The notes beneath the pieces are model-generated. The model made no database searches, was not told the origin of the DNA, and saw nothing but the letters and a program-made list of their open reading frames with translations. A program made the position numbers and the translations under genes. Positions 25,732-28,539 of a stretch of 52,484 nucleotides of DNA are shown piece by piece; the stretch's first letter is position 1, and every line of letters begins with the position of its first letter. Source of the stretch: Elusimicrobia bacterium HGW-Elusimicrobia-1 (GTDB taxonomy: Bacteria; Elusimicrobiota; Endomicrobiia; PHAN01); the NCBI GenBank assembly GCA_002841695.1, contig PHAN01000009.1, positions 1 through 52,484 on the forward strand, read 5' to 3'.

Positions 25732-28131
25732 TTACTGGCTCACATTTATATCATCAATATAAAACTCGGCGCCCAGACTATTGGAGAATCCCTCGGCGCG
25801 GAGGTTGAGCGTTGCGTTTTGCGTCGGAGTACCGGCGTTGATTGTGATTAGCTCCCAGGCGTCCTGCGCGGCGCCGGTGGCCGAAATGCTCGTCGTCGTT
25901 ATGCCGCGACCGCTTAAAGTAAGTTTCGGTTTTGTCGCGGAGCCGCCGTAACTTGTGTTGTAGCGGATGTATGCCGTTATCGTCAGAGCCGCTCCCGCTT
26001 TTACCGGAACGTCCCACTCCCAGACCGCGTCGCCGACGAAGCCGAAAGAATTGGGCCCCGTTCTTGCGGGTTTGCCTTGCGCGGATTTTGATTGGAACGC
26101 CCCGGGCTTTGTGCGCCACTCCTGATTTGAAGAATATCCGGAAACATTGTCGAGAACGTCTCTTGAGCGAACGCGGCAGTAATATCTTTTATTCCGCAAA
26201 AGTCCGGTGAATGTATAACTCGCGGCAATCCAGCCGGAATTATAAACATTACCGCCGAAATTGCCGCTCGTCGAGATTTCGACATAATACGGTGTCGCGT
26301 GAAGCCCCCCTCCCGAGTCTGTCGCGCCGCCAGAGGTTATCGTTATCGAAGAGACGCCCGAGGCAAAAGATATTACGGTCTGTCCCGACGGAGGTATCGT
26401 GTCAATCTTGACACAGTAGGTTGACGAGTAAACCGACCATGCTCCGTATGTGTCGGATGTGCGGACGAGCCAGTAATAGGCTCCGCTCGCAAGCGCGCCC
26501 GGCGGCTGATACTGCGCGGCGCCCGACGATGTGTCTCCTGAATCATTGGCTATTGCCCCGGTAAAGCCGTAAGGTGACGTTGCGGATTTGTTCGTGTGTG
26601 TGGCTATCTGGACGCGGAAGCCCGTCTGAGAGTCCGACTCATCGTCCACGAAGTTCCATTTGAATACGGGCTGGGTCGAGGAAATCCAGACGCTGTCCGC
26701 CGGAGAAATCAAATTCGGCGAGGTGGCGGTGTTTGTCGCGTATTGGATATTAACTTCAAGTAATTGCGGAGTTGAGGTAGAGACGCTCGTCGTGAACGAT
26801 GAGATATACTGTATATAGCGCGCTCTCGGCGAAGCGATGGGTGTTCCGGTATTGACGGTGAACCATTCGCTTGCGGGCGACCACGCAGACCACGAGCCGT
26901 CGGGGGTTGATGTATCGCCTGTTCTGGTTTTGAGTTTTATCGAGGTGCCGGCGGGCACGCTTTGGCCCCACGAGACCTGTCCCCACTTCGAGCCTTTCGA
27001 GCCGGTGTCTATAGCGCGGGATTGGAGTTCGGCGGAGGGACGATAACATAAATATCTTACTATTACGATGCCGGAGCCGCCGTTGCCGCCTGCGGCACCA
27101 GCAACTCCATTACACCCACCCCCACCCCCACCGCCACCTGAACCAGTATTAGCGCCAGCGTTACCACCAGAATTTGGTGTTGGTGTCCCAGCAGTACCAT
27201 TTGCTCCACTATTTAAAGCACTTCCTCCACCAGTACCAGCAGTAAAATTATAACTTCCACCACCACCACCGCCACCAAGTCCACCATTACCAGCATTATT
27301 ATCAAGACCTGTACCACCGCCGCCAGCTGCCCAATAAAGATTTGTGCCATTGATTGAGTTAGAAACACCGTTTGCTCCGGCAGGTGCATTTGTGAGAGCG
27401 CTATTTCCATAACCACCGCCACCACCAGAGCCGTTCGAGGCGTAATAACCACCTGTACCACCACTTCCATTACCTGCACCACCCGGATTTGCTCCTGCAT
27501 ACGTGGACCCACCACCACTACCACCAGTAGCCCTACCAGAACCAGCATTAGTCGAAGGGTAGTGGCCTCCATAACCGCCACCTCCTGCAGTCAAACCAAA
27601 CGCCGTGGTATCTTGCCCTGCCGATGCAGCAGTTCCAGAAGTTCCAGTAGATGTAGTCCCTATGCCGCCATTACCAATTATAATATTATAACCTTGCGCT
27701 GTTACATTTGTTGAACCAGACAAAACTCCCCCTCCGCCTCCTCCTCCGCCATTGTTTCCAGAACCTCCTCCTCCGCCACCAACCACCAAATATTCAACAG
27801 CCATAGTAGTATTTGGTGTGAATGTTCCGTTTGAAGTGAAAGTATGAATGGTATATTCACCTGAATAAGTAATTGTGCCACCTATGGCTTGAACTGTTGA
27901 AATCTCGACATAAGCAGCGGCACCGGTGCCTTTTACCGTCACCGATGACTTGACGAGACCGGCGTTGAAATCCGTGTCGGTTGTGTCGGTGGCTGTAGAG
28001 TAATTGATGGCATAGATTTTGAGCGCCGAAATGGCGCTTAGGAAAAATATGTAACAAGCGGCTATTAAAATGGGTCGTAAAGGCAGTTTGGGGGTATGGC
28101 GCGAGAGACGGCGAGACGGCCTTGAAAACAA
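25732..28131 (-). CDS. Giant glycine-rich secreted surface protein
   Basis: The frame gives 799 residues from a TTG at 28131, but the true start is uncertain (see findings). A basic N-terminus and a hydrophobic stretch (LRPILIAACYIFFLSAISALKIYAI) act as signal peptide or anchor. Residues 85-365 are a glycine-rich domain introduced by TFTSNGTFTPNTTMAVEYLVVGGGGG, a type seen in large bacterial surface proteins. Two or three fibronectin-III/carbohydrate-binding-like segments follow (GTSIKLKTRTGDTSTPDGSW, SPADSVWISSTQPVFKWNF), then a jelly-roll-like C-terminal domain ending EFYIDDINVSQ. The glycine-rich part uses GGT and GGA codons and is AT-richer than the flanks, a sign of domain acquisition. 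An adhesin or matrix role is an inference. Confidence 0.78.
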   Translation of the reverse strand: MFSRPSRRLSRHTPKLPLRPILIAACYIFFLSAISALKIYAINYSTATDTTDTDFNAGLVKSSVTVKGTGAAAYVEISTVQAIGGTITYSGEYTIHTFTSNGTFTPNTTMAVEYLVVGGGGGGSGNNGGGGGGGGVLSGSTNVTAQGYNIIIGNGGIGTTSTGTSGTAASAGQDTTAFGLTAGGGGYGGHYPSTNAGSGRATGGSGGGSTYAGANPGGAGNGSGGTGGYYASNGSGGGGGYGNSALTNAPAGANGVSNSINGTNLYWAAGGGGTGLDNNAGNGGLGGGGGGGSYNFTAGTGGGSALNSGANGTAGTPTPNSGGNAGANTGSGGGGGGGGCNGVAGAAGGNGGSGIVIVRYLCYRPSAELQSRAIDTGSKGSKWGQVSWGQSVPAGTSIKLKTRTGDTSTPDGSWSAWSPASEWFTVNTGTPIASPRARYIQYISSFTTSVSTSTPQLLEVNIQYATNTATSPNLISPADSVWISSTQPVFKWNFVDDESDSQTGFRVQIATHTNKSATSPYGFTGAIANDSGDTSSGAAQYQPPGALASGAYYWLVRTSDTYGAWSVYSSTYCVKIDTIPPSGQTVISFASGVSSITITSGGATDSGGGLHATPYYVEISTSGNFGGNVYNSGWIAASYTFTGLLRNKRYYCRVRSRDVLDNVSGYSSNQEWRTKPGAFQSKSAQGKPARTGPNSFGFVGDAVWEWDVPVKAGAALTITAYIRYNTSYGGSATKPKLTLSGRGITTTSISATGAAQDAWELITINAGTPTQNATLNLRAEGFSNSLGAEFYIDDINVSQ

Positions 28132-28226
28132 AAACCCCGAGGTTTCATGCTTCCTCGGGTGTTTGGTTTTGGGTCGTTTGGGGGTTAACGCGCTTAAAGC
28201 GCCTTTTAATGCTTCATATTGACAGC

Positions 28227-28259
28227 AGATAGATAGATAGATAGATAGATAGATAGATA
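28227..28259. repeat. (AGAT)8 tetranucleotide tract
   Basis: Eight complete AGAT units plus one base lie 96-128 bases before the TTG at 28131, on the 5' side of the surface-protein gene. Such tracts change length by slippage. The frame effect is described in the findings. The remainder of 28,260-28,539 shows no supported gene. Confidence 0.95.
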
Positions 28260-28539
28260 AGGAGCGTTTTTCATATCAGGGCCTTTTTGGGGGCATTTTG
28301 AGGCTAAAAACGGAGCGTTTAGGGGCGTTATTTTTGTCATTTTGTGAACTCTGTTTTTCGGGGCGAGGCCGGTGGCAGCGTCAACCTTGAGGCTATACCG
28401 CAATAATCCCCGCCTGCTACTGGAAAGATTCTACAAAAAACTTGTTACGAAGTTGTTACGGCGTCAAGGGTATGGCGGCGGCGCCGGCGATTCCGGACAG
28501 GGAGCGAAGAGCCGCGCGTTTCCTTTATGACTTTACTTC

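Follow-up and report, generated by a model that had tools for sequence, protein, structure and literature searches.

A (TATC)n tract at twelve loci of an Elusimicrobia bacterium may act as the frame switch of a multi-copy surface-protein contingency family

A perfect tetranucleotide tract was found between an ATG and the reading frame of a surface-protein gene in a stretch of 52,484 nucleotides of Elusimicrobia bacterium HGW-Elusimicrobia-1 (contig PHAN01000009.1, analysed at its full length and called the window here). The genome (2.06 Mb in 25 contigs) contains the tract at exactly twelve loci, which is far more than chance. Perfect repeats at the 5' end and a frame that switches in silico upon gain or loss of units are features of SSR contingency genes, and judged by its sequence the set of twelve loci likely works as such a family. 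The more specific interpretation, with the tract as frame switch in an opa-like multi-copy contingency family and a consensus in the OFF state, is given an even chance of being correct.

All elements of the window locus are located on the minus strand. The tract (28227-28259) reads (TATC)8T, or (AGAT)8 on the plus strand, and comprises 33 bp or 8.25 perfect units; no second perfect short-unit tract was present in the 52-kb window. Longer tandem repeats were observed at 19208-19295 (22 bp, four copies) and at 20206-20282 (18/36 bp). An ATG (28272-28274) is separated from the tract by 12 nt and has a Shine-Dalgarno-like AAAAAGG (28282-28288; AAAGAGG in most copies) seven bases ahead of it. Directly upstream of this ATG, the surface-protein frame is closed by a TGA (28276-28278), a site equivalent to TAA or TGA in most other copies. 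From just past the TGA the frame is open through the tract to position 25732, a total of 847 codons, with no ATG upstream of the tract. At eight units the ATG is one frame off: it lies 143 nt from a TTG at 28131 in the gene frame, so that the gain of one unit or the loss of two restores the frame. The assembled product, MKNAPYLSIYLSIYLSAVNMKH, ends after 22 residues at a TAA (28206-28208). An additional ATG further upstream (28338-28340; MTKITPLNAPFLASKCPQKGPDMKNAP as the start of its product) is in the frame of the ATG at 28274, and in the copy on contig C20 the two upstream ATGs share their frame despite a 24-nt insertion separating them. The sequence-only reading had described the tract, the Shine-Dalgarno-like motif and the ATG one frame off the gene exactly to the base. 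Its statements that the gene frame is open through the tract without an ATG, that the eight-unit frame stops at the TAA and that one unit more or two fewer join the frames were borne out as well, and the 22-residue product agrees with its view that the assembled state is OFF for this ATG.

The surface-protein gene (25732-28131, minus strand; 799 codons counted from the TTG) encodes a protein of about 800 aa, which does not justify the earlier term 'giant'. Gly_rich_2 and Ig_Rha78A_N were its only Pfam matches, with no homology to opa, to uspA2 or to outer-membrane beta-barrels found by Pfam, and Rfam matches were limited to tRNAs. The C-terminal domain is common to about 20 paralogues. A hydrophobic signal-peptide core, ILIAACYIFFLSAISALKIYA (28009-28071), lies 52 codons past the tract with a Kyte-Doolittle value of 2.46 over 17 residues. 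Ahead of this core, a terminator-like hairpin (28124-28159) consists of CCCGAGG-N10-CCTCGGG followed by GTTTTTGTTTTC, with a folding energy of -15 kcal/mol and a z-score of -2.8. It is kept in six paralogous leaders, and the CCCGAAG/CTTCGGG of paralogues represents a paired change. The first ATG, GTG or TTG of the gene frame past the tract is the TTG at 28129-28131. As a start codon it is doubtful because it lies inside the U-tail of the hairpin; the equivalent position is TTG in some copies and TTA in others, and TTG starts are present in four copies, that of the window among them. Taken by itself, the window gene would have a fair alternative start in this TTG combined with its own signal peptide.

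The twelve tracts are distributed over contigs C3 (eight tracts), C4, C9 (the window), C13 and C20, and the loci are designated here by contig and position. Every tract is on the coding strand, before genes for secreted or surface proteins wherever the downstream gene was readable; the one at C3:289414 precedes an apparent rhodanese-type secreted protein, and the gene following the C13 copy runs off the contig. The copies share an almost invariant core, GCTCCT(TATC)8TGCTGTC, and in most of them AAAGAGG-N7-ATG is found 14-15 nt ahead of the tract, while at C3:289414 and C3:292781 the upstream sequence is unrelated right up to the core. Three non-homologous types of sequence follow the core. Group A (the window, C3:152281, C3:287062, C3:296473, C13 and C20) has the hairpin of the window, and group B (C3:154493, C3:282987 and C3:289414) has a different one, CCCGCCTCTTTGGGCGGGTTTT. 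In group C (C3:157748 and C3:292781) the tract itself forms the core of the signal peptide, YLSIYLSIYLSICCLLLNPSEAFSA continued by TQITH. The C4 copy is interrupted by a gap. Surface-gene paralogues with tract leaders form two islands, at C3:144.5-162 kb and C3:281-300 kb.

The tract encodes (YLSI)n, a hydrophobic stretch resembling a signal peptide, in all three frames, because the unit of four nucleotides has no common factor with three. Over 17 residues this stretch has a Kyte-Doolittle value of about 1.9-2.1 in groups B and C. For the two group C genes the tract-encoded core is the only signal peptide, and no standard start precedes it except for one remote TTG in C3:157748. Among paralogues without a tract, signal-peptide cores are encoded by simple T/C-rich short repeats (CTCTTTACTCTTCACCC-like), which are also present upstream of promoter boxes, and many of these paralogues open upstream into MITE-like repeats with no standard start.

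The relation between tract and gene was examined by changing the number of units in silico in the eight copies with readable flanks, with ORF lengths counted within 2.5 kb. With six or nine units the upstream ATG was fused to the long ORF in all eight, and with seven, eight or ten units each copy yielded a product of 28-56 aa. This relation holds for the three downstream types and for both spacers between ATG and tract (14 and 15 nt), and includes C3:289414 and C3:292781, which have an unrelated upstream ATG; one common register would arise by chance with a probability of about (1/3)^4. In seven of the eight copies no stop interrupts the gene frame over the 35-146 codons that separate tract and signal peptide, with a shuffle P of 0.009-0.18 per copy and one to six stops in the other frames. 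The exception is C3:152281, the gene of which is split by a stop. For all copies jointly, the open frames have a probability of 10^-3 to 10^-4 by hand estimate, in which copies of the same group are not independent. Four loci (C3:154493, C3:287062, C3:289414 and C3:292781) have intact ORFs of several hundred codons, with no ATG, GTG or TTG between tract and signal peptide.

Tract and hairpin are 64 nt apart in four unbroken copies and 73 nt apart in that of C13, differences divisible by three, and 35 nt apart in the broken copy C3:152281. Four group A copies align without gaps over 100 nt at 67-87% identity. Substitutions between tract and hairpin showed no codon-position bias, and the linker is therefore not conserved as a protein, its amino acids being without visible constraint. 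If translated, it would be a free linker.

A shared promoter-like box, GTAACAACTTCGTAACAA, is located at 28428-28459 (minus strand) in the window; its two GTAACA boxes stand 11 bp apart, and a -10-like TAGAAT follows, which is TATAAAT in most copies. The tract comes after this box at a distance of about 170 nt and should therefore be transcribed. The conserved form of the box, GTAACAACTTCGTAACAATTATTTTGTATAAATA, was found 125-280 nt upstream in most of the twelve loci. In the genome regions examined it occurs at 22 places, mostly before genes of the surface family and many of them at contig ends, and the genes so marked appear regulon-like. The GTAACA boxes resemble sites of OmpR/PhoB-type response regulators. 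At C4:147601-148290 the promoter is followed by an ORF6N/antirepressor-like gene (named by eye) and then the tract, and at C13:18040-18965 by a gene of the same type, likewise named by eye, and then the hairpin, without a tract. With a CACAAAATGACAAAAA tail in common, the tract leaders look like remnants of such a promoter-ORF6N unit.

Eleven of the twelve tracts measure 33 bp, exactly eight units, with flanks that differ by 13-33%. The twelfth, at C3:282987, consists of 79 + 24 nt with a one-base glitch at the join. Each of 16 pairs of contig ends in the genome has exactly 79 bases in common, from which a final assembly k of 80 follows; the published pipeline used IDBA-UD with k 40-100 on 150-bp paired reads (PMC5520028). 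Since 79 equals k-1, the C3:282987 tract is taken to be collapsed and to measure at least 80 nt (at least 20 units), and tract length can therefore change. The eleven identical lengths, together with the glitch in this long tract, could also suggest that all tracts are longer ones collapsed by the assembler to a length dependent on the k-mer, which would make unit count and frame meaningless. We consider this highly improbable. De Bruijn collapse of the 33-bp tracts was rejected, given that k=80 predicts about 81 nt (41 or 61 nt at the lower IDBA-UD steps), a value that fits C3:282987 only. Moreover, a second assembly that differs elsewhere again has 33 bp. This is PHAL01000028.1 (G203:C90), from the HGW-Elusimicrobia-3 bin of Horonobe groundwater sample 08E140C01. 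It extends further than the window at its ends and differs by an indel of 97 nt (17440-17536), is otherwise identical, and is a separate assembly on account of these differences. The C13 tract is also 33 bp in the second assembly (G203:C55), although at both loci the two assemblies may rest on the same reads. Contig C4 breaks off exactly where its 33-bp tract (148258-148290) ends and is followed by a gap of 173 N, a hint that there may be a branch between eight and more units.

The 97 nt absent from PHAL01000028.1 hold an imperfect repeat (17478-17533). Many paralogues elsewhere end at contig ends within the signal-peptide region, because repeats in that region exceed k. The HGW-Elusimicrobia-3 bin includes at least two contigs (G203:C90 and G203:C55) that derive from the window's organism, which is of another class, and that MAG is therefore contaminated. 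The tract was absent from the one congener searched and gave no match in IMG/VR; a search of 294 genomes from the phylum matched G203 only, by two contigs of the same organism, mis-binned. Relatives with another number of units, proposed earlier as a check, were thus found neither in the congener nor among the 294 genomes. The contingency-locus logic that the sequence-only reading saw in the window gains from the twelve-locus family, the 6/9 relation in eight of eight copies, the open frames, the intact genes lacking a start and the one long tract. It is weakened by the eight units of eleven tracts and of both re-assembled loci, a constancy that the sequence-only reading itself had named as refuting should it apply to populations, and by the TTG at 28131 as an alternative start.

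As a frame switch, the system would operate as follows. The shared promoter would give an mRNA in which Shine-Dalgarno motif and ATG are followed by (TATC)n, a variable linker and then signal peptide and surface protein. Unit counts divisible by three (6, 9, 12) would place the ATG and the surface protein in one frame, with the gene ON; for the window, nine units yield 848 aa counted from the ATG at 28274. Other unit counts would end translation after about 20-55 codons, and in groups A and B the untranslated RNA past the tract would presumably expose the hairpin, so that transcription is cut as well. The tract could act as a signal-peptide core at any length, since all frames give YLSI. In the window, hairpin and a separate signal peptide come after the tract, and the fusion would therefore carry a hydrophobic stretch about 50 residues ahead of that signal peptide. 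Units would be gained and lost by slipped-strand mispairing, and we infer that translation begins at the ATG and that the population includes ON cells. The assembled consensus of eight units is OFF at every testable locus. Such near-constancy is unexpected for a fast-slipping tract with diverged flanks; slow slippage combined with selection for the OFF state could account for it, as could gene conversion, a fixed element or recoding.

A fixed element is central to a different explanation, in which the ORF of ATG and tract encodes a separate leader peptide ending before the hairpin and the gene starts downstream, in the window at the TTG at 28131. The tract would then be a regulatory or leader-peptide element that affects RNA level or attenuation and not frame, for which uspA2 of Moraxella offers a comparison. 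This is possible, though on balance rather unlikely. It accounts for the constant tract length, the preservation of a hairpin with paired changes in six leaders and the lack of codon-position bias in the leader. A further point in its favour is that the window, C3:296473 and C20 all have a TTG at equivalent sites, and the one in C3:296473 yields the compact signal peptide MFHSTIAFLFVLVILIGAKNLYA. The hairpin may have its origin in an ORF6N-type gene, because promoter, ORF6N-type gene and hairpin occur without a tract at C13:18066 and because C4 has an ORF6N-type gene with the same promoter upstream of its tract. Left unexplained are the copies with TTA for TTG or without any start (C3:287062, C3:154493, C3:289414 and C3:292781), those whose tract serves as the signal peptide, and the open frames and constant 6/9 relation with unrelated upstream ATGs.

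The constant length would also be explained if the identical 46-bp core were a homology block for the exchange of 5' ends and genes or for gene conversion, with start-less copies silent until given another 5' end and slippage secondary. Identity between copies is indeed highest at the tract edges and has dropped to background by about 45-60 nt upstream. At C3:289414 and C3:292781 unrelated sequence reaches the core, and a leader of 15 nt would be in frame at eight units if it were joined to a downstream sequence of group B. Such a recombination cassette is nonetheless an improbable answer, as the relation of ATG and gene frame is identical in all copies, as if kept per locus, and no reciprocal donor of the C3:289414 and C3:292781 upstream segments was present in the genome regions examined. 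Recoding at a fixed length, in which ribosomes or RNA polymerase would at some frequency re-phase by 4 nt inside a repeat of eight units, the equivalent of one added unit, and so set a low level of surface protein, would turn constant length and constant frame offset into the functional state instead of an OFF allele. It would explain the eight units, the -1 frame relation, the invariant core and the start-less intact genes together. However, the tract contains no known slippery motif, the long tract at C3:282987 does not suit a fixed length, and re-phasing by 4 nt within a tract of this kind is, to our knowledge, not an established mechanism; the probability of recoding is very low.

If the frame switch exists, this deep-groundwater bacterium would have a dozen of its surface or secreted proteins under a form of bet-hedging control that is usually associated with pathogens. 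With no known animal host, phages, predators or attachment would come into view as the selecting force. The puzzle would then be the near-invariant eight units, one short of ON at each testable locus. Repeat-driven phase variation is not known to us from Elusimicrobiota, and the available literature contained nothing relevant on HGW-Elusimicrobia-3 or on phase variation in Elusimicrobia.

Known systems offer several parallels. In Candidatus Mycoplasma girerdii, BspA-like proteins carry dinucleotide repeats for which reads showed low-frequency ON alleles (PMC5476646). Both cases concern a surface family of an uncultured bacterium with an OFF consensus that one additional unit would turn ON; there the ON alleles were seen by reads, whereas the present data consist of assembled sequence alone. 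Moraxella catarrhalis uspA2 has an (AGAT)n tract upstream of the ORF, the count of which alters the transcript level, with 13-18 units listed in three strains at 132 bp upstream (PMC7302503, citing Attia and Hansen 2006). The AGAT unit and its place upstream of a surface-protein gene are shared with the present tract, which, unlike that of uspA2, lies in predicted codons between the ATG and the gene and has a fixed eight units, not a graded number. In the opa genes of Neisseria, (CTCTT)n is located in the signal-peptide coding region of about a dozen genes (PMC3960869, PMC5354566). The pentanucleotide there is a tetranucleotide here, and the proteins are unrelated. In most of the present copies, 35-146 codons and a terminator-like hairpin separate the tract from a second signal peptide that follows it, and the number of units hardly varies and is OFF wherever a locus was testable. 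The opa-type feature proper, a repeat forming the core of the signal peptide, is found at C3:157748 and C3:292781, while the window and most copies have a separate signal peptide. Alike are the set of about a dozen paralogous surface genes, the position of the repeat just past the start codon in a signal-peptide region, and a unit length that is not a multiple of three, so that gain or loss of units sets the frame. On this comparison, opa is the closest system in logic and uspA2 the closest by repeat unit.
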